Shown here one piece after another: positions 7,800 to 20,460 of a stretch of DNA of 64,000 nt. Every line of letters starts with the position of its first letter. The stretch's first letter is position 1. Source of the stretch: Anabaena subtropica FACHB-260. GTDB lineage: Bacteria; Cyanobacteriota; Cyanobacteriia; Cyanobacteriales; Nostocaceae. A program made the translations under genes and the position numbers. The notes below the pieces were generated by a model. That model did no database searches and was not told the DNA's origin. It saw only the letters and a list, made by a program, of their open reading frames with translations. The stretch covers positions 1-64,000 of the forward strand of contig NZ_JACJRF010000018.1 in the NCBI RefSeq assembly GCF_014697105.1, written 5' to 3'.

Positions 7800-9599
7800 C
7801 TAACATCGTTTTGCTGATGCAGGATTGACAAAATCATGTAAATCTGCTTCCCAAACACTGATGTAAATTAAATCGCAGTTCTGGCGCACAATTTGACCTT
7901 TAACTCCACCTGCGGTAAATCTAAAGTTATCTGACTGACGTTGTTGTATCTGTTCCAAACCCTGCTGGATTTTTGTACTAGATTGACCGCCTAACATCCC
8001 ATTTAACGTAGCTTGCATGACTTCAGGGTCTACCGACTGAGCAAAAGATACCTCAGTTTGGCGTAGAACTCCAGAGTTGCGATCAAATAAGTAGCCTAAG
8101 TCAACTTGGTTTGGGATTAACCTATAAACTACAGCACGGGTATTGCCCCACAAGCCTCGTAAATCTCTATTTGGCTTGCCGAGTGAGGCTTCCACCGTGC
8201 TTCTTGCTGTGCCTGTGGGAAATGCGGGAACGCTTGGCCTAGTTGTATTGGCTTTGCTTGGCTGTGGTGGTTTTGTTTCTGGTAATGAATCTGGCTGAAT
8301 TGGGGGTTCGGGAACAGGTTGATTTTCTGGTTCTGTTGTTGAGCTAGGTTGTGGTGCTGGCGTATCAGTGGTTATGGGTGTGTTGTCTGGTGTTGGTGTA
8401 AATGCTTCTGGGGAATTGGCGTTATCTTGGCGATTTTCCTGAGTTCTCGTGTCAGAAAAGACTGGTGGCTGAGTGGGAGTAGGAACACTAGGGGTGATAG
8501 GGGTGATGGGTTCAGGAATGGAACTCGGAGAGACTGGTGAGGGGAGAGGATTACTAACAACAGGTGTTTCCGATGGTGACTGGCGTGTAAGAGTAGACAT
8601 TGCAACTCCAGCCATTAAACCACCGACTAATAAACTACCAAAGACCAAAATAGATTTTTGGCGATCGCTCTCTATCCACGGTAGGCGATCGCCTTGAGGT
8701 TTAATAGAGGGAACAGATAAGGCTTGGGTTTGTTGGGTTGGTGCAGTGGTGGGAGATACGCTAGGTTGAGTCGTCAAACCAGATGATAAAGCATACAGCA
8801 TTTTACTAGCAGTACTGAAGCGATCGCCTGCCTGTGGTTTAATAGTTTGATTCAACACTGTTACAAATTGTGGCGAAACATGAGGAGCAAAGTTTTGCCA
8901 AAGAATTTCTCCTGTTTGCGGGTGAGTTGGCAATTCTTCAGGACTTTTACCAGTTAATAAATAAATTGCTGTCAAACCTAAGCTATAAATATCCGTGGCG
9001 TAAACAGGTCTACCTACAGCTTGTTCGCTCGGCATATATCCAGGTGTACCAATGACGAGCGATTGAGTAGCATATTTTGGAGAACTCACCACTGAACGAA
9101 TCGTTTCCTTAACTGCACCAAAATCAATCAAAACTGGCTTTTGGTCAACATCACGGAGAATAATATTATCCGGCTTAATATCTCTGTGAATAATACCCTT
9201 ACTGTGGACGTAATCTAAAACTGATAGCAGACTCAACAAAATTGCCCTAACAGTGCTTTCATTCTGATACCCTGTGGCTTCAACAAGACTTCTCAGGGTT
9301 TGACCATGAATCCATTCTTGCACAAGGTAAAACTGCCCATTTTCGGAGAAGTAAGCATGGAGTCGGGGAATTTGGTCACTGTGTTCGCCCAAAAACTCTA
9401 GAGTTGCTGCTTCCCTTTCAAACCGTTGTTGAATTATCTGATAAGTTTGTGGGTCATTGCTTATCGGTTTGAGTTGCTTAATCACGCAGCAACGACGAGA
9501 AGGCATATGAGTATCTTCCGCCAACCAGGTTTCTCCAAACCCCCCAGCACCGAGTACCTGAATAACTTGATAGCGATTGTTCAGCAGAATAGATGTCAT
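7800..9599 (-). CDS. Membrane-anchored Ser/Thr protein kinase with cyanobacterial C-terminal domain (kinase 1 of 3)
   Basis: A 599-residue PknB-class kinase. The kinase domain spans about residues 9-270 (glycine loop GAGGFGET, Lys in VIKQL, HRDIKPDNI, DFGAVKE, PSEQ in place of APE). One membrane helix follows at about 315-335 (LVFGSLLVGGLMAGVAM). Then come a Pro/Thr/Ser-rich linker to about 455 and a C-terminal domain (460-599, FPTGTARSTVEASLGKP) that I recognise only as common in cyanobacterial kinases. The tail is probably outside the cytoplasmic membrane and may sense something there. It is last in a run of three paralogous kinase genes. Confidence 0.9.
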   Translation of the reverse strand: MTSILLNNRYQVIQVLGAGGFGETWLAEDTHMPSRRCCVIKQLKPISNDPQTYQIIQQRFEREAATLEFLGEHSDQIPRLHAYFSENGQFYLVQEWIHGQTLRSLVEATGYQNESTVRAILLSLLSVLDYVHSKGIIHRDIKPDNIILRDVDQKPVLIDFGAVKETIRSVVSSPKYATQSLVIGTPGYMPSEQAVGRPVYATDIYSLGLTAIYLLTGKSPEELPTHPQTGEILWQNFAPHVSPQFVTVLNQTIKPQAGDRFSTASKMLYALSSGLTTQPSVSPTTAPTQQTQALSVPSIKPQGDRLPWIESDRQKSILVFGSLLVGGLMAGVAMSTLTRQSPSETPVVSNPLPSPVSPSSIPEPITPITPSVPTPTQPPVFSDTRTQENRQDNANSPEAFTPTPDNTPITTDTPAPQPSSTTEPENQPVPEPPIQPDSLPETKPPQPSKANTTRPSVPAFPTGTARSTVEASLGKPNRDLRGLWGNTRAVVYRLIPNQVDLGYLFDRNSGVLRQTEVSFAQSVDPEVMQATLNGMLGGQSSTKIQQGLEQIQQRQSDNFRFTAGGVKGQIVRQNCDLIYISVWEADLHDFVNPASAKRC

Positions 9600-9778
9600 G
9601 CAATGTTAAAAGTATCCGCCCTTTCTCAATTTACATCACGACGCGGCGATAGGTTATGTTCCTGCAATTTGGGGGTTATTTTTAAACGCAGAGGTACGCA
9701 AAGAAGTTACAAGAGAAATTCGCTTTGTCTGACTGACTGCATCGCTGGGCTAAACTTAGACTCAGATTACGAATTAAC

Positions 9779-11440
9779 CTATCTAGCACCACTCACAACC
9801 CATCTGTTATTTCCTGCATCCCATAATAGGGAGAAACGCACAGAACTAGGTGATTGCTTGCCATTCTTCATAAAATATCGCAACTTGGCGTTAACTGTTG
9901 CTGTGTCTGCATTAGCTTGTTCCAAGGTTACTTGTTCAATATCTACATTTTGCACTTGTCCACCCCACCAATCAACATAGGAAAGATAACCTTTGGGGTG
10001 CAGCTTTCTATTATTTTGGAAACTGGGAGCTAACAGATTCCAGGCGGTATTATATTCACCTTGATTGATAGTTTCATAATAGTTTTGTACGGCTTCTTCT
10101 GGTGAAGGTCTATTTACTTCCGGTTGGTTTGCAACAGGAGTTTGTGATGGTGTAGTGGGTTCTGTGTTAATGGAAGTTTGGGAATCTAGGGGTGTGGTAA
10201 AAGGGCGTAAATTTCTGGGAAATTGGGAAGATTCTTGTGGTGTGGGGTTTTGAGTTGTATTTTGATTGGTGGATGTTTCAGATGGAGATGGTTCTACAGT
10301 CTGGGTGACATTGCTGTTAAGAGTGGATTCATTAGACGATGCCGTTGACTGGGTTACAGGCTGATTTGGTCTAGTGAGGGCAAAACCAACGACTACAGAA
10401 GCCCCAATCAAACCACCAGCAATTAGACTACTGAGGAGGATTCCTTTACTACCATTGTTTTGGGTTATGGGTTGAGGTGTTGGTGCAGTCCCTGGACTGA
10501 CAGCAACTGTATTAGGTAGGTTTACAGCAGGCGATGCAGTTGCTACAGGTGGTTGTTGATAAGGAACTGTGGGCAATGATTGTGGTTGCTGATAAGCGAC
10601 TGTGGGAGGGAAACTGACTACTCCTAATTGCAAGGCTTCGAGCATTTCTCTGGCCGTGGCGAAACGTTCTCGTGGGTGGTAGGCGATCGCTCGATCAATC
10701 ACACCTGCTAATGTAGGACTTACACTCAAGGCGTGTCTATGCCAAATAATTTCTCCACTGCGGGGGTCTGTTTCTAATTCCTGTGGCTGTTTCCCTGTCA
10801 GCAAATAAATTGCTGTCATGGCTAAACTATATAAGTCACTCGAATAAACTGGTCTACCTGCTGCTTGCTCACTGGGCATATATCCGGGTGTTCCAATCAC
10901 AATCGAGCTGGTAGTATTCCCTTGGGAATTTACGACTGTTCCCATCGATTCCCGTACTGCACCAAAATCAATTAGTACAGGCTTACCATCACGATGACGC
11001 AAAATAATATTGTCTGGTTTGATGTCGCGGTGAATGATGCGTTTAGAGTGGACATATTCTAATACAGGTAACAAATTTATCAAAATTTCCCGGACTGCAC
11101 TTTCACTTAGTACTCCTTGCTGCCGGACTTTATCTGTGAGTGTATCCCCTTCAACCCACTCTTGGACTACATAAAATTGCGTATTAGATTGAAAATAAGC
11201 GTACAAGGTAGGGATTTGGTCTGCGTAGCTACCCAAATCTTCTAAAATTGCCGCTTCTCGTTGAAAACGCTCTTGTACTAGTTGGTAAATCTGGGGATTA
11301 TTTTGAATCGGTCTGAGCTGTTTTACTACACAGCGACGGTTGGAGGGCATTTGGCTATCTTCTGCAAGGAATGTTTCCCCAAATCCACCACCACCTAAAG
11401 TCCGAATTACCCGATAACGATTATCTAACAGCGTTTCCAT
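9779..11440 (-). CDS. Membrane-anchored Ser/Thr protein kinase with NTF2-like C-terminal domain (kinase 2 of 3)
   Basis: A 553-residue kinase. The kinase domain covers about residues 8-270 (GGGGFGET, VVKQL, HRDIKPDNI, DFGAVRE). A Pro/Gln-rich linker follows, then a membrane helix near 333-355 (GILLSSLIAGGLIGAS) and a Ser/Thr/Asn/Gln-rich spacer. The C-terminal ~105 residues (EEAVQNYYETINQGEYNTAW to RWVVSGAR) look like an NTF2/SnoaL-type fold. The kinase half is nearly identical to kinase 3 around the activation segment, while the tails are unrelated. Its partner substrates are unknown. Confidence 0.9.
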   Translation of the reverse strand: METLLDNRYRVIRTLGGGGFGETFLAEDSQMPSNRRCVVKQLRPIQNNPQIYQLVQERFQREAAILEDLGSYADQIPTLYAYFQSNTQFYVVQEWVEGDTLTDKVRQQGVLSESAVREILINLLPVLEYVHSKRIIHRDIKPDNIILRHRDGKPVLIDFGAVRESMGTVVNSQGNTTSSIVIGTPGYMPSEQAAGRPVYSSDLYSLAMTAIYLLTGKQPQELETDPRSGEIIWHRHALSVSPTLAGVIDRAIAYHPRERFATAREMLEALQLGVVSFPPTVAYQQPQSLPTVPYQQPPVATASPAVNLPNTVAVSPGTAPTPQPITQNNGSKGILLSSLIAGGLIGASVVVGFALTRPNQPVTQSTASSNESTLNSNVTQTVEPSPSETSTNQNTTQNPTPQESSQFPRNLRPFTTPLDSQTSINTEPTTPSQTPVANQPEVNRPSPEEAVQNYYETINQGEYNTAWNLLAPSFQNNRKLHPKGYLSYVDWWGGQVQNVDIEQVTLEQANADTATVNAKLRYFMKNGKQSPSSVRFSLLWDAGNNRWVVSGAR

Positions 11441-11608
11441 AACTTAGCGCCAAGCAGTACAAGAATAATTTTTATATACTTTACGTTTTACCGATTGTCA
11501 GTACTTGCTTAAAAATTGTTACTCAAATCTTAAGTTGAGCATTTCTCAAGCAGTCAACTAAATCAGGAGTGTTTAATCATGTAATAACTACACACATATC
11601 AGAGATGA

Positions 11609-13078
11609 TTACTTAAAATGTCTCAGATTATAACGTTTTTGATATGCGGCAATATAGTCTACATTTCTCTGCTCTACTCTTGTGAGTAATCTTACAGGAA
11701 AATCTTTAGGTGAATATCTGGGGTTATACCAAGGTTGATTATTAAAGTAATTCTGTAAACCCTGAGTATCAAAACGGCGACCATGACGAGCGAAGATACT
11801 ATTTCGCATAATATCTAAGGCGTAACCATTCTTACCATTTAAATCTGCGTCGGTTACAGCCCTTTGCGAAAGCCAAAAATAATTATTGTCAGTTGTGTTT
11901 ACATCTATTGGTGTGGATGTAATAGAGGGAGAGGTTGGAGGGTTAATCTTTTGTATGGGAGGTTGGACAATAGGTGGTGTAGTGACTGGAGATTGAGACA
12001 CCACAGAATTTGGTGTAACTACTGGTGTGACAGTTATTGATTTTACTGGAGAGGTGATATTCTGTTCAGCTACAGGTTGAGATGGTCTTGTAAAGACCAA
12101 GCCAGCAATTACCGATGCACCGATTAAACCGCCTGCAATCACACTACCTAAGAGGATACCTTTTTGATTGTTACCTGAAACACTCACTTGGGGAGCTACG
12201 GGAACAGTCGGCTGTGGTGGTGCAAAATAAGGCTGCGTGGGCGCAACAGGAGTGTTGATGCTTTGTAAACTATCTAACATGACTCTAGCAGTGGAGTAGC
12301 GATCGCGGGGATGATAGGCGATCGCTCGATCAAGTACACTGGCTAAAATAGAACTAATGTGACTGGCGTATTGTCGCCAAATCATTTCACCAGTCTGAGA
12401 GTCTATCTCTAATTGTTGTGGCTGTCTTCCAGTTAACAGATAAATTGCTGTCAGACCTAAACTATATAAATCACTAGAATATACTGGTCTACCAGCCGCC
12501 TGCTCACTGGGCATATATCCGGGTGTTCCAATCACAATCGAGCTGGTAGGATTACCTTGGGAATTTACGACTGTTCCCATTGATTCCCGCACTGCACCAA
12601 AATCAATCAGTACAGGTTTACCGTCACGATGACGCAGAATAATGTTGTCTGGTTTAATATCCCGGTGAACAATGTGCTGAGAATGGACGTATTCCAAAAC
12701 AGGTAACAAATTTATCAACAGTTCTTGAATAGCACTTTCCGTCAATAACCCTTGCTGTTGCAATTTTGCTGTGAGAGTATCCCCTTCAATCCATTCTTGC
12801 ACTAAATAAAATTGATCATTAGCTGAAAAGTAAGCATACAAGGCAGGAATTTGGTCAGTTGTACCACCCAGTTCTTCTAAAATTGCTGCTTCCCGTTGAA
12901 ACCGTTCTTGTACTAGCTGGTATATTTGTGGGTTATTTTGAATCGGTCGTAATTGTTTGACTACACACAGCCGCTTGGAAGGCATATAACTATCTTCTGC
13001 AAGATAGGTTTCACCAAACCCACCAGCGCCGAGTGTGCGGATAACTTGATAGCGATCGTTCAACATCTGTATGCTCAT
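11609..13078 (-). CDS. Membrane-anchored Ser/Thr protein kinase with C-terminal YARHG domain (kinase 3 of 3)
   Basis: A 489-residue kinase counted from the ATG at 13078 (an upstream TTG and a downstream ATG at 13066 are also possible). Kinase domain at residues 5-265 (GAGGFGET, VVKQL, HRDIKPDNI, DFGAVRE). A membrane helix lies near 305-328 (GILLGSVIAGGLIGASVIAG). A Pro/Thr/Val-rich linker is followed by a YARHG-type domain (YALDIMRNSIFARHGRRF, NNQPWYNPRY). YARHG domains are extracellular modules thought to bind cell-wall material. The gene starts 35 bp after the GIY-YIG gene, so the two may be co-transcribed. Confidence 0.9.
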   Translation of the reverse strand: MSIQMLNDRYQVIRTLGAGGFGETYLAEDSYMPSKRLCVVKQLRPIQNNPQIYQLVQERFQREAAILEELGGTTDQIPALYAYFSANDQFYLVQEWIEGDTLTAKLQQQGLLTESAIQELLINLLPVLEYVHSQHIVHRDIKPDNIILRHRDGKPVLIDFGAVRESMGTVVNSQGNPTSSIVIGTPGYMPSEQAAGRPVYSSDLYSLGLTAIYLLTGRQPQQLEIDSQTGEMIWRQYASHISSILASVLDRAIAYHPRDRYSTARVMLDSLQSINTPVAPTQPYFAPPQPTVPVAPQVSVSGNNQKGILLGSVIAGGLIGASVIAGLVFTRPSQPVAEQNITSPVKSITVTPVVTPNSVVSQSPVTTPPIVQPPIQKINPPTSPSITSTPIDVNTTDNNYFWLSQRAVTDADLNGKNGYALDIMRNSIFARHGRRFDTQGLQNYFNNQPWYNPRYSPKDFPVRLLTRVEQRNVDYIAAYQKRYNLRHFK

Positions 13079-13113
13079 AGCAGACTTCAAAAACTAGCTA
13101 GTTCAATATAATC

Positions 13114-13659
13114 TCATTTCAAATCTAGTAATCCTTCTTCCTTTAATTTTGGATGAAAACGCAATGGAGTTTTTAAACCACGTAATTCTAAAGCCGCTAA
13201 AATTTCCGCTTCCACTCGTCGAGCTACATTTTTGATAATTTTAATTTGTGTTAATTCATCATTGGTAGGTTTTTGATAATTTGCTTGTTCTTCATCTGTC
13301 ATCAATGTTTTCACGTCTACAGGTTGTGACCATTTATCTTTTTGTTCTCCATTCCCCACAGGTATAGCAACATTTTCAGCCATCCAAGCTTTTTCAATAT
13401 TTTCTAAAACTGTCCGACTAGGACGTTCAATGGTTTGAACTTTCACCCAGTAACATTGTTGTGGTTGACGGACTAAATGCTGTCTCAAACTCAAGTAAAC
13501 ATCACGGGAATATCCCACAAATTGCAATGTTTTTGCTTGGTCGAAAATTGCATATACTCCTATCTTTCCCTGATAATTTTCAGGTAATTGACCGTTTTCA
13601 TCAATGTAGGGTATATATTCAAGATTGGCTAAATTATGAATATTAATTTCAGTCATCAT
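13114..13659 (-). CDS. GIY-YIG nuclease family protein
   Basis: A 181-residue protein. Residues about 33-95 resemble a GIY-YIG core: GVYAIFD stands for the GIY strand, LQFVGYS for the YIG strand, then an Arg in SRDVYLSLRQHL and a Glu in LENIEKAWMAEN. The signature is degenerate (YIG reads FVG), so nuclease activity is uncertain. The rest (100-181) is a charged helical extension found in cyanobacterial and plastid relatives. ATG ATG at the start gives two equivalent initiation sites. It precedes the kinase array on the same strand, but no functional link is known. Confidence 0.7.
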   Translation of the reverse strand: MMTEINIHNLANLEYIPYIDENGQLPENYQGKIGVYAIFDQAKTLQFVGYSRDVYLSLRQHLVRQPQQCYWVKVQTIERPSRTVLENIEKAWMAENVAIPVGNGEQKDKWSQPVDVKTLMTDEEQANYQKPTNDELTQIKIIKNVARRVEAEILAALELRGLKTPLRFHPKLKEEGLLDLK

Positions 13660-13987: not shown

Positions 13988-15253
13988 CTAAAACCTGCCA
14001 TTTCCCTGGATAATATGCTTGGCAGTAGTCAAGGTTTCTAAGCTGATAAATCCCCGGCGATGACCTTTTTGGTTAGACATACCTAAAAACACTGAATCAC
14101 CTCGTGAAGGGTTGCGAGAGAAGCGGGGAGATGTGTTGATATAGGTGGAGGCGCTATTCACTCCTAAGGCAAACTGGCGACTTTCTTGATATGATTCAGT
14201 GGCGATGGAATCAGCATGACCGCTACTGTATTGATTTATCCAGGCGATCGCCCCATCTAAGCTATCTACCAGTTTAAATGCTACTGTTTTAGTTAAATAA
14301 GCGTTGCCCCATTCGTTATCTTTTGCCAACTGCAACTGAGGAAAAGCTTCTACTAGTTCCTCGTCGCCTTTAATCTCGAAACCTTTTTCTTTTAAGCTGT
14401 TCCATAATACGGCTAAAGATGATGGCACGGCTTGGCGATGAATTAGCACTTTCTCAATAGCGTTAACGGGATCGGGTTCGCTTTCATGGCTATCGAGAAT
14501 CATCCAGCGTACCATCTCTAAGCTGCTATTTAACGACCAGTAGAGGTAACAGTTACCCATTGCTGACTTTAACACTGGACAAGTCGCTTGCCGCATGACC
14601 TGCTGTACTAAGCTGGTACGTCCATAGGGAATCACCAAGTTCACATATTGGTCTTGGGTGATTAAATCTCGCAGTGAACCTCCATGTTCTGTGGTGACTA
14701 GTTCTACACAGCCTGATGGTAGTCCAACTTCCACAATGGCATTTTGTAATGCTTCAACGATCGCTGCGTTAGAATGACTAGCTTCGGTACTACCCTTAAG
14801 GATGATACTATTACCAGTTTTAATACACAAACCTGCGGCGATCGCTCCTAAATCAGGAAACGCTTCATAAATAAAGCCAATTACTCCCAATGGCATTAAC
14901 TGAGAATAACTCTGAGAATCTTCTGGTTGATAGTCGGCGTTTCTCACCCGGCGCAAGGGGTCGGATATTTCTCCCAACCTTTGGAGGATTTCTACTGTCG
15001 TCTCTAACCTAGTGGGGGTTAGCTTTAGCCAATCTAAAATCAAGTCTGGTACTGCCATTTCTCGACTGGCCTCTAGATCCAACGTATTGGCTTCTAAAAT
15101 GTCGTCAAATGCCTGTTCTAGCGCCTGCGCCATTGCCAAAACAGCGCGACTACGGTCTACTCCCTTGGTAGTGCCTAACTTCAGGGAAGCTTGAAAAGCA
15201 CGTTTGGCGCTTTTCATGGGTTCGGGATAATCTTCTAAAACTGCAACGGTCAT
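13988..15253 (-). CDS. ProA-like protein (glutamate-5-semialdehyde dehydrogenase family) lacking the catalytic Cys
   Basis: A 421-residue aldehyde-dehydrogenase-fold protein of the gamma-glutamyl phosphate reductase family. It shows MPLGVIGFIYEAFPD, LCIKTGNSIILKGS, NLVIPYGR and the C-terminal SPRFSR region. In ProA the catalytic Cys sits in a V-C-N-A motif after the QRP segment. Here the equivalent reads EPDPVNAIEK, with Val (codon 14465-14467) at the Cys position. Proline synthesis activity is therefore doubtful. Cyanobacteria often have two ProA paralogs, and this looks like the divergent one. The ATG at 15253 lies 4 bp after the preceding gene's stop, so the longer open frame to 15346 is rejected. 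Confidence 0.78.
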   Translation of the reverse strand: MTVAVLEDYPEPMKSAKRAFQASLKLGTTKGVDRSRAVLAMAQALEQAFDDILEANTLDLEASREMAVPDLILDWLKLTPTRLETTVEILQRLGEISDPLRRVRNADYQPEDSQSYSQLMPLGVIGFIYEAFPDLGAIAAGLCIKTGNSIILKGSTEASHSNAAIVEALQNAIVEVGLPSGCVELVTTEHGGSLRDLITQDQYVNLVIPYGRTSLVQQVMRQATCPVLKSAMGNCYLYWSLNSSLEMVRWMILDSHESEPDPVNAIEKVLIHRQAVPSSLAVLWNSLKEKGFEIKGDEELVEAFPQLQLAKDNEWGNAYLTKTVAFKLVDSLDGAIAWINQYSSGHADSIATESYQESRQFALGVNSASTYINTSPRFSRNPSRGDSVFLGMSNQKGHRRGFISLETLTTAKHIIQGNGRF

Positions 15254-15257
15254 TGAG

Positions 15258-15680
15258 TTATCGTCTGTAAGTAAGCCAGACCATGAGTGCTGGCAAAATC
15301 GCCAACAATACTGCCACCATTGCCCAAGCGATGATACTAGAACCATTGGCCAATCGCAGTGCTAATGGTAGCCATATAATCACTAGCACGAAAATAATGC
15401 CTAAGGCTATAGGTAAATAGCTTTCTCCCAATTTTGGGTGGACAACGTGCCAATTACCCCCTGTCCAACGCCAAGCACGTTTGTAGGGATAGGTTGTGGA
15501 AAGCTGTTCTAACACATGACCATTATCTTCTACGACAAAGATTTGCTGACAGCGATCGCAACCAAAGGCTTCTGTCAGCGTAATCGGTACTAACCGTCCT
15601 CGACGACGGCAAGGACACGGATATTCGGTGTTGAAGTCGATTTTTTCCGGTTTTTTAGATTGCACAAGCTTTATCAGCAA
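15258..15680 (-). CDS. Zinc-ribbon protein with two C-terminal membrane helices, function unknown
   Basis: A 140-residue protein. CPC (residues about 22-24) and CDRC (about 41-44) could form a zinc ribbon. Residues 90-137 make two membrane helices (YLPIALGIIFVLVIIWLPLAL, IIAWAMVAVLLAILPALMVW). The start is uncertain: a TTG at 15680 opens the frame and a GTG at 15665 is equally possible, while no ATG precedes the Cys motifs. Four bases separate it from the ProA-like gene, so the two are probably co-transcribed. I do not recognise a function. Confidence 0.7.
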   Translation of the reverse strand: MLIKLVQSKKPEKIDFNTEYPCPCRRRGRLVPITLTEAFGCDRCQQIFVVEDNGHVLEQLSTTYPYKRAWRWTGGNWHVVHPKLGESYLPIALGIIFVLVIIWLPLALRLANGSSIIAWAMVAVLLAILPALMVWLTYRR

Positions 15681-17532: not shown

Positions 17533-17727
17533 TTTGACTTCTCCCAAGACAGCAACATACTAAAGAAAGTACTAAAAATAGAATATCGTAACTGGCGACA
17601 CTGACAGTTTTTCCTTAATTGTAAGCTAGCAGAAATTGCGTCACTATAGTCAATAGTGAGTTGTCAGTTGTCAGTTGTTTGTTGTCGCTGCTGACCACTG
17701 ACCATTGACTACTGACTATTGACAATT

Positions 17728-20460
17728 ATGGATCTAATTCTTTGTCACACAACAGCTGATTTTGATACCTTGGGCGCAGCCGTAGGGTTAACTTGCCTAC
17801 TACCCGGAAGTAAGATTGTGTTGACTGGTGGCGCACATCCACCTGTGCGCGATTTTTTGGCGCTGCATCGGGATGAGTATCCTTTGATTGAAAGACGTTC
17901 AGTAAATTCCGAAAAGATTCGTTCGCTGACAGTGGTGGATGCACAACAGCGCGATCGCTTGGGTAAACCGGCTGAATGGTTCGACTTACCTCAAGTTAAG
18001 ATAATTAAGGTTTACGACCATCACACCGGACAAGTATCAGATATCCCAGCTACCGAGTTTCATATTGCCCCAGTGGGTGCAACCACAACGCTAATTGTGG
18101 AGGAACTACAACAGCAGCAAATCACTCTCAATTCTGCTCAAGCAACTGTCATGGCTTTGGGTATTCATGTAGACACGGGTTCCCTGACTTATGACCAGTC
18201 CACACCACGGGATGCTTTGGCTTTAGCTTGGTTGATGGAACAAGGCGCTAGTTTATCGGTAATTTCTAGTTACCGTGACCCTGGCTTATCTCCCCAATTA
18301 CAGAAGCTATTAACGGAAGCATTGGAAAAATTAGAATATCTTTGTTTGCGTGGTTATACTATTGCTTGGGTGACATTAACAACAAATAGTTTTGTCCCTG
18401 GGTTATCAAGTTTAGCCTCCCAGCTAATAGAGTTAACAGAAATTGATGCTTTGTTGTTGGCGAATGAACACCCCTCAAATAAAGATGATTCCCGCTTCAC
18501 AGTAATTGGGCGATCGCAAATTCCGGGTCTGCATCTTAACCAATTATTTCAACCCTTTGGTGGTGGTGGTCATTCCCAAGCAGCATCACTCAATTTACGT
18601 GGCGTTGATACCCAAGATATTCTTCAACAACTCCTAAAAGGTATCAAAGCTGCTATTCCCCATCCCCCCACAGCCAGGGATTTGATGTCTTCCCCAGTCC
18701 GCACAATTCGCCCAGAAACCACAATTGCCGAGGCACAACGCATTTTATTACGCTACGGACACTCTGGTTTATCTGTAGTTGATCCCCAAGGGCAATTGGT
18801 AGGGATTATTTCCCGCCGTGATTTGGATATCGCCCTACACCACGGATTTAGTCATGCGCCTGTCAAAGGCTACATGACTACTGATTTAAAAACCATCACC
18901 TCAGACACGACATTGCCACAAATTGAGTCGTTGATGGTGACGTATGATATTGGTCGCTTGCCAGTGTTGGAAAATGGGCAGTTAGTGGGTATCGTCACTC
19001 GGACTGATGTCTTGCGGGAATTGCATCAAAATAGTGCTGAATTCCCAGATATCAGACCTGATTTTAAAACCTCACTCAGCACTCAAAACTCAAAACTCAG
19101 TACTGAATTGAATAGGCATAGTCCGCCGCAGACATCGCGCCTTACTCCCCAACTCTGGCAATTACTCACCACCGCTTCCCAAGCCGCCGAGAAACGGGGT
19201 TGGCATCTCTATTTGGTGGGTGGTGCGGTGCGAGATTTGCTGTTAGCTGAAGCCACAGCAGGCACTCTCATGATTACAGATATAGATTTAGTAGTTGATG
19301 GTTTCCACAAATCAGCAGATGTGGGCGCAGGTGTGGAACTAGCAAAAGCACTCCAAGAAATGTACCCAGCCGCCCGTTTAGAAATCCACGGCGCTTTTCA
19401 AACGGCTGCTTTGTTATGGCATAAAGACCCCGACTTAGATTCCTTGTGGGTGGATATCGCCACCGCCAGAACAGAATTTTATCCTTACCCAGCCGCCAAT
19501 CCCGAAGTTGAAGCCAGTTCCATTCGCCAAGACTTATATCGCCGTGACTTTACCATCAACGCCCTCGCCCTGCGCCTCACCCCTCCCCGTGCTGGTGAAT
19601 TACTCGATTTCTTCGGCGGTTTATTAGATTTAAAAGCCAAGCAAATCCGAGTGCTGCACGCCAATAGCTTTATCGAAGATCCCACCCGCATTTATCGTGG
19701 TGTACGCTTTGCAGTGCGGTTGGGATTTGCCATTGAACCGCGCACCGAAGAATATATCCGCTATGCCATCAACAGTGGCGTTTACGATCGCACTGCCCAA
19801 ACTAACACCAAAACCCCAGCCCTACAAACTCGACTCAAAACTGAACTCAAACACATTTTAGAAGCACCCTACTGGCGATCGGCTTTGCAGTTACTCGACG
19901 ATTTAGGGGCGTTGCAGTGCATCCACCCTACCCTGAAACTAGATAGTGAACTCACACGACAACTGCGTTTACTAGAACGTTGTTTGCGGCGATTTGATCC
20001 GCAACAAAATTTAATTCATTGGCAAATGCGCTTAGAAGCAATTATTGCCCACCTCGCACCAACCCATCGGGGTAAAGTCGCCAAAAACCTGCAATTACAA
20101 GAAGATAGCATTAAGCATTTGCAAAACTTAGCTACAGCTAAAACTGAGATTATAGGGTCTTTACTTAAATATCAACACCACAGCCAAGTAGTTAAACTAC
20201 TACGCAATTATGACTTAGAAATATTAATTTTAATTGCCTTACAAAGTCAGCAAAAAATTAGGCGACAGATATGGAATTACTTGACAGTTTTGACTAACAT
20301 TCAGCCAATTCTCAACGGCAATGACCTCAAAAAGTTAGGATACAAGCCAAGTCCGCAGTATAAACAAATGCTAGATGATTTACTCGCGGGTACTTTGGAT
20401 GGAGATATTACCAATCAAAGAGAAGCAGAAGAGTTTTTAGCCAAACAATATCCTAAATAA
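17728..20460 (+). CDS. DHH-CBS-tRNA nucleotidyltransferase fusion (CCA- or A-adding enzyme)
   Basis: A 910-residue multidomain protein. An N-terminal DHH/DHHA1 phosphoesterase-like part ([28 protein letters not shown]) covers about 1-310. Two CBS domains (about 315-440) may bind adenine nucleotides. A class II nucleotidyltransferase head ([19 protein letters not shown]) and an RNA-binding tail complete it. This architecture is known for bacterial tRNA 3'-end A- or CCA-adding enzymes. The linker at 19068-19110 is made of ACTCAAA/ACTCAGT heptads, apparently STRR DNA turned coding. The ATG at 17728 is chosen over a TTG three codons earlier. Confidence 0.9.

Follow-up and report, generated by a model that had tools for sequence, protein, structure and literature searches.

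The minus-strand gene at 13988–15253 of the window (the whole stretch of 64,000 nucleotides of Anabaena subtropica FACHB-260 that was analysed, contig NZ_JACJRF010000018.1) appears to belong to an ancient cyanobacterial family of ProA paralogs that does not perform the ProA reaction and that, on balance, probably consists of pseudoenzymes working together with the membrane protein encoded directly upstream. The loss of the catalytic cysteine is fixed in this family, the family is under strong purifying selection, and a canonical proA is present elsewhere in the genome, which together argue for a role other than the ProA reaction, as had been proposed in the initial annotation of this locus. 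The hallmark of a pseudoenzyme, i.e., the loss of catalytic residues in a protein that is under selection, was thus found here.

The paralog and its former active site

The gene and the codons of the residues discussed below are as follows.
13988–15253, minus strand: Cys-less ProA paralog of 421 aa (NF001221, 337.9 bits; TIGR00407, 286.2 bits)
14465–14467, minus strand: Val263 codon GTT, aligned with the nucleophilic Cys of ProA (Cys255 in T. maritima)
14114–14116, minus strand: Arg380 codon; Asp in canonical ProA (D715 of Drosophila P5CS)
14087–14089, minus strand: Phe389 codon; canonical ProA has Glu (Glu383 in E. coli, Glu381 in T. maritima)
14858–14860, minus strand: Phe132 codon, in place of the Arg in the canonical motif (F/Y)E(A/S)RP
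14624–14626, minus strand: Tyr210 codon, in place of the Arg in the canonical motif IPRG

The open reading frame starts with an ATG at 15253, ends with a stop codon at 13988, and is homologous to ProA over nearly its full length (match to PDB 1o20, E 4.3e-70). Its best family is NF001221, the cut-off of which (289 bits) is passed, so that automatic annotation as a glutamate-5-semialdehyde dehydrogenase is to be expected; the score for TIGR00407 lies below the cut-off of 317.45 bits. Because an AlphaFold2 model built from 55 close sequences reached a pLDDT of only 42.1, the residue mapping rests on alignments. With phmmer, residue 263 of the paralog, within a gap-free block, was paired with residue 267 of the 1o20 chain, and Phe389 with residue 393. 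Judging from the chain length, the 12 extra residues of 1o20 would be a tag, in which case 267 and 393 would be Cys255 and Glu381 of T. maritima ProA, i.e., the catalytic Cys and a neighbouring Glu (PMC4271523). The Cys of ProA attacks the substrate (PMC8963878). The paralog motif reads D-P-V-N-A-I-E around Val263, and the earlier placement of a valine at the nucleophile position was borne out by this alignment to a ProA structure.

The 176 paralog loci collected (L003–L178, including the window as L083 and several species represented in two collections) yielded 168 distinct sequences. The Cys site is occupied by Val in 165 of these, by Ile in two, and by Ala in one, and every canonical copy viewed has Cys there (15/15 and a further 32/32, i.e., 47/47). 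Among five more diverged paralogs, the three from genus g62 (one of which is truncated) have Ala and the two from f27 have an unrelated motif; the most diverged members have lost some or all of the N-A-I-E motif. The Cys loss is conserved in orthologs and, judged from these alignments, is an old and fixed trait of the paralog family. No substitute Cys at the active site was seen across the family; an isolated Cys elsewhere in residues 256–269 occurs in two of the 168 paralogs (L118 and L177). Cys235 was considered as a replacement nucleophile and rejected, as it is also present in the 15 canonical copies, is Ser in 5/168 paralogs, and is Thr or absent in the deepest ones.

Four further replaced positions are invariant across the 15 canonical copies. 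The D715-type position is Arg (R380) in 168/168 paralogs versus Asp in 47/47 canonical ProA sequences, and the Arg named together with it (R712) is retained by 159/168. Both D715 and R712 of Drosophila P5CS are named as binding G5P (PMC11061531); the main text of the P5CS structure paper does not give the role of D715. At the Glu383 position, where 47/47 canonical copies have Glu, none of the 168 paralogs do (Phe in 151, Ala in 10, Tyr in 5, Leu in 1, and Cys in 1), and a Glu-to-Ala exchange at this type of position lowers ProA activity 190- to 2,100-fold (PMC4271523). The motif Arg residues at 132 and 210 are likewise found in 0/168. The nucleotide-binding half is retained (K145 in 163/168, N148 in 168/168, and G154 in 166/168), as is Asn264 (167/168), which adjoins the Cys site. 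The initial annotation had taken both the nucleotide- and the substrate-binding regions to be otherwise well conserved; this holds for the former, and was wrong for the latter because the D715-type Asp, the Glu383-type Glu, and the motif Arg residues are replaced.

The former active-site region is nevertheless strongly conserved in most paralogs, with the new residues in place (segments DSHxSEPDPVNAIEK, IPYGR, and FLGMSNQKG), which would suit either a binding site or some other catalytic function. That the rebuilt pocket (e.g., His256, Lys268, Arg380, and Tyr210) catalyses a different reaction on another substrate without a Cys nucleophile, perhaps with NADP(H), is a possibility that we consider rather unlikely. 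The retained K145, N148, and G154 agree with such an enzyme, and a precedent on a related fold exists in histidinol dehydrogenase, an enzyme of ALDH-like fold that works with zinc and without a Cys nucleophile. However, the deepest paralogs lose these segments yet keep the partner gene, and the gene context points to no activity or substrate.

Linkage to a zinc-ribbon-like membrane protein

The partner is described by the following features.
15258–15680, minus strand: partner gene, zinc-ribbon-like with two predicted membrane helices (open reading frame and family profile)
15531–15623, minus strand: four-Cys ribbon C22, C24, C41, and C44 in the 140-aa reading (53-row alignment and beta-strand model)
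15267–15431, minus strand: two hydrophobic helices, residues 84–110 and 115–138

The partner stop codon occupies 15260–15258 and the ATG of the paralog (15253) follows four bases after it; the family profile begins at the GTG at 15665, which is likely the real start of the partner. This arrangement is not restricted to the window. The partner lies upstream on the same strand at 61 of 66 diverse paralog loci versus none of 14 canonical proA loci, and at 58 of those 61 it is at most 100 bases from the paralog frame, the distances at the others being 187 (L175), 343 (L144), and 1,452 bases (L146). It is also upstream of the paralog in 110/110 of the loci L003–L112, and adjoins the five most diverged paralogs (5/5). 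The coupling to a zinc-ribbon membrane protein that was first noted from the window alone thus proved to be a deep gene-pair linkage. Other recurrent neighbours of the paralog are a ribH cluster (17/66 loci) and further clusters at 12 loci or fewer, and a natural fusion of paralog and partner was not present among the open reading frames of the sampled loci.

A search with the partner profile in 54 genomes showed that the linkage is strong and not absolute, the two genes being separable in some genomes. Six genomes have the paralog without a partner match (G211, G036, G093, G083, G076, and G058), three have the partner without the paralog (G085, G241, and G374), and G039 and G320 have a distant partner-like match only. 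The partner was found in none of the 17 genomes searched from family f25 (genomes of 1.6–3.7 Mb, probably the marine picocyanobacteria), and in none of seven genomes from other classes. In G183, the partner beside the paralog (C1, 2285498–2285905) contains in-frame stops and the reading frame of the paralog is open.

Among 53 aligned partner sequences (L145, which is without the third Cys, and L152 were excluded), C22, C41, and C44 and three Trp residues are invariant, and C24 is conserved in at least 90%; in the partner of L151 the second ribbon Cys is shifted. The resulting CxC...CxxC motif offers four Cys in two pairs as candidate metal ligands. The predicted structure, which comprises two helices and six short strands at a mean pLDDT of 69.6, had no PDB match with E <0.001 in a fold search. 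The copy in the window matched no Pfam, NCBIfam, or PHROG family, the family profile matched no PDB sequence, and Pfam searches with the 53 sequences gave scattered weak matches (DUF2207_C, DUF4181, DUF2396, and others) without agreement. Synechocystis sll0372 was dropped as a candidate partner, as it occurs in virtually all sequenced cyanobacteria (PMC2823733), whereas none of the 17 f25 genomes searched has the partner. A second, distant partner homologue of 169 aa, which has no Pfam match, is encoded in the same genome as the window (G000, contig C11, L232, 2019–2525, minus strand), and matches of similar strength occur in other genomes too; a link of such a second gene to DUF2396 was not confirmed.

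Distribution, descent, and the proline pathway

Distribution was counted by hand from a table of 386 genomes of the phylum. The paralog is present in 124 of the 186 genomes of the window's class, namely, in 43/43 of the window's family, 59/62 of the rest of the order, and 22/24 of the rest of the class outside f25, where five of the 22 are very diverged copies. It is found in 0/57 genomes of f25, and, by score, a paralog-like best match was obtained in 0/200 genomes of the other classes. The lone or low-scoring matches of 19 of the 57 f25 genomes, of G039, G320, G374, G085, and G241, and 12 copies from other classes were viewed, together with the second copies of G177 and G332, the rest being assigned by score alone; all those viewed are canonical and carry Cys, Asp, and Glu at the nucleophile, D715-type, and Glu383-type positions, respectively. 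More distant relatives of the paralog were not encountered in a scan of viral contigs.

The paralogs form one clade apart from canonical ProA. A tree of 46 selected sequences places 31 paralogs (including par_L175 as a long branch) on one side of a branch with support 100/99 and, on the other, 11 canonical copies of the class and four from other classes. They are under strong purifying selection: median pairwise dN/dS, comparing the window with 17 of 80 named loci, was 0.038 for the paralog and 0.052 for the partner, values of which only the order of size counts because dS exceeds 1 in 15/17 paralog and 5/17 partner pairs. Decay of a duplicate without function would agree with the lost catalytic residues, the strong divergence of the deepest lineages, and the copy of G179, which is cut short. 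With dN/dS at about 0.04, presence in every genome of the window's family, and an invariant R380, a decaying pseudogene was rejected, and we regard this explanation as highly improbable.

As the initial annotation had anticipated, a second, canonical proA was found in the genome of the window: a full-length homologue on contig C1 (L002) with 33% identity and the motif A-A-C-N-A-I-E. Besides the paralog and L002, a ProA family search of this genome gave only distant partial matches. Two genomes, G284 and G051, hold the paralog, proB, and proC and no canonical proA. TIGR00300, which we take to be the arginine-to-proline enzyme, was found in six of eight genomes tested and is absent from G051, so that the paralog becomes a suspect for the ProA step. 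In G284 and G051, the flanks of canonical proA from sister genomes match only scattered, repeat-like pieces among the matches listed, and because these flanks are missing too, real loss of proA and a missing stretch of assembly are indistinguishable. A real loss could mean that the paralog has a larger part than assumed here, and both genomes speak against a purely non-catalytic reading.

These two genomes would also suit a second or back-up ProA that makes GSA by an unusual route, as would the passed NF001221 cut-off and the treatment of sll0461 and sll0373 as two Synechocystis proA genes (PMC12386471). Such an activity is nonetheless quite improbable for proteins in which the Cys, the Glu383-type Glu, the D715-type Asp, and the motif Arg residues are absent in 168/168 sequences, and which, in the window, score below the TIGR00407 cut-off.

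Somewhat less improbable, though still unlikely, is a role in the ProB/ProA pathway as a scaffold or regulatory subunit, comparable to a non-catalytic GPR domain. The homology to ProA and the presence of proB in 21/21 genomes searched agree with such a subunit. However, proB is also present in genomes without the paralog (G039, G320, G374, G241, and G163), the paralog is retained in G284 and G051 without a canonical proA, and no proB was detected with one ProB query in the open reading frames of the 66 paralog loci. The complex with glutamate kinase suggested earlier consequently gained no positive evidence, given these 66 loci and the proB genes of paralog-less genomes.

Possible role, known systems, and neighbouring genes

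For the probable pseudoenzyme and its partner, the following arrangement can be envisaged. The basic residues at both ends of the two-helix hairpin suggest that the N-terminal ribbon would be cytoplasmic, and the partner may anchor the ProA-fold protein at the membrane. The retained nucleotide-binding half would still bind NADP(H) or a similar nucleotide, a ligand other than gamma-glutamyl phosphate would occupy the rebuilt pocket, and the complex of paralog and partner would serve in sensing or regulation, not in catalysis. A more specific version, which we put forward as speculative and rather doubtful, is a two-gene module that was ancestral to most of the class and was lost in the small-genome family, with the membrane-bound pseudoenzyme sensing a metabolite or NADP(H). 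The Asp-to-Arg exchange would then suit a ligand without an alpha-amino group (e.g., a 2-oxo or dicarboxylic acid), with the zinc-ribbon-like membrane protein relaying the signal.

Several known systems resemble this pair in part. With ProA (NF001221/TIGR00407; PDB 1o20, 4ghk, and 8zok) the paralog shares near full-length homology, K145, N148, G154, and Asn264; it differs in the replaced Cys, Glu381/383, D715-type Asp, and two motif Arg residues (168/168), in its separate clade, and in its linkage to the zinc-ribbon-like membrane gene. It is homologous to the GPR domain of P5CS (ALDH18A1), as judged from the PDB matches, but is without the kinase domain and has lost the catalytic residues. ALDH16A1 is a pseudoenzyme of the ALDH superfamily that, like the paralog, has lost the nucleophile on an ALDH-type fold (expected for the paralog from homology), whereas the paralog is bacterial, belongs to the ProA branch, and forms a conserved pair with a membrane protein.

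No paper describing the paralog family was found in the open-licence PMC literature, which leaves subscription journals mostly outside. A 2024 survey of ProA, ProB, and P5CS counts a single ProA gene for each of 27 cyanobacteria and describes ProA duplications as patternless (PMC11061531), and thus does not report the family. Synechocystis sll0461 and sll0373 are both called proA and are both raised under nitrogen deprivation (PMC12386471), and either could be the paralog. If one of them is not ProA, cyanobacterial proline flux models and expression studies misread that gene. Much of the class has retained the paralog–partner pair.

Some neighbouring genes in the window have features of their own. 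On the minus strand, 13114–13659 encodes a 181-aa protein whose match to GIY-YIG is weak and sub-threshold (16.6 bits against a cut-off of 22.6), and 7800–13090 holds three adjacent Ser/Thr-kinase-like genes with similar N-terminal domains, of which the one at 11609–13090 combines the kinase domain with a C-terminal YARHG domain. On the plus strand, 17719–20460 encodes a 913-aa protein that joins a DHH domain, two CBS domains, and poly(A) polymerase/tRNA nucleotidyltransferase domains in one chain.
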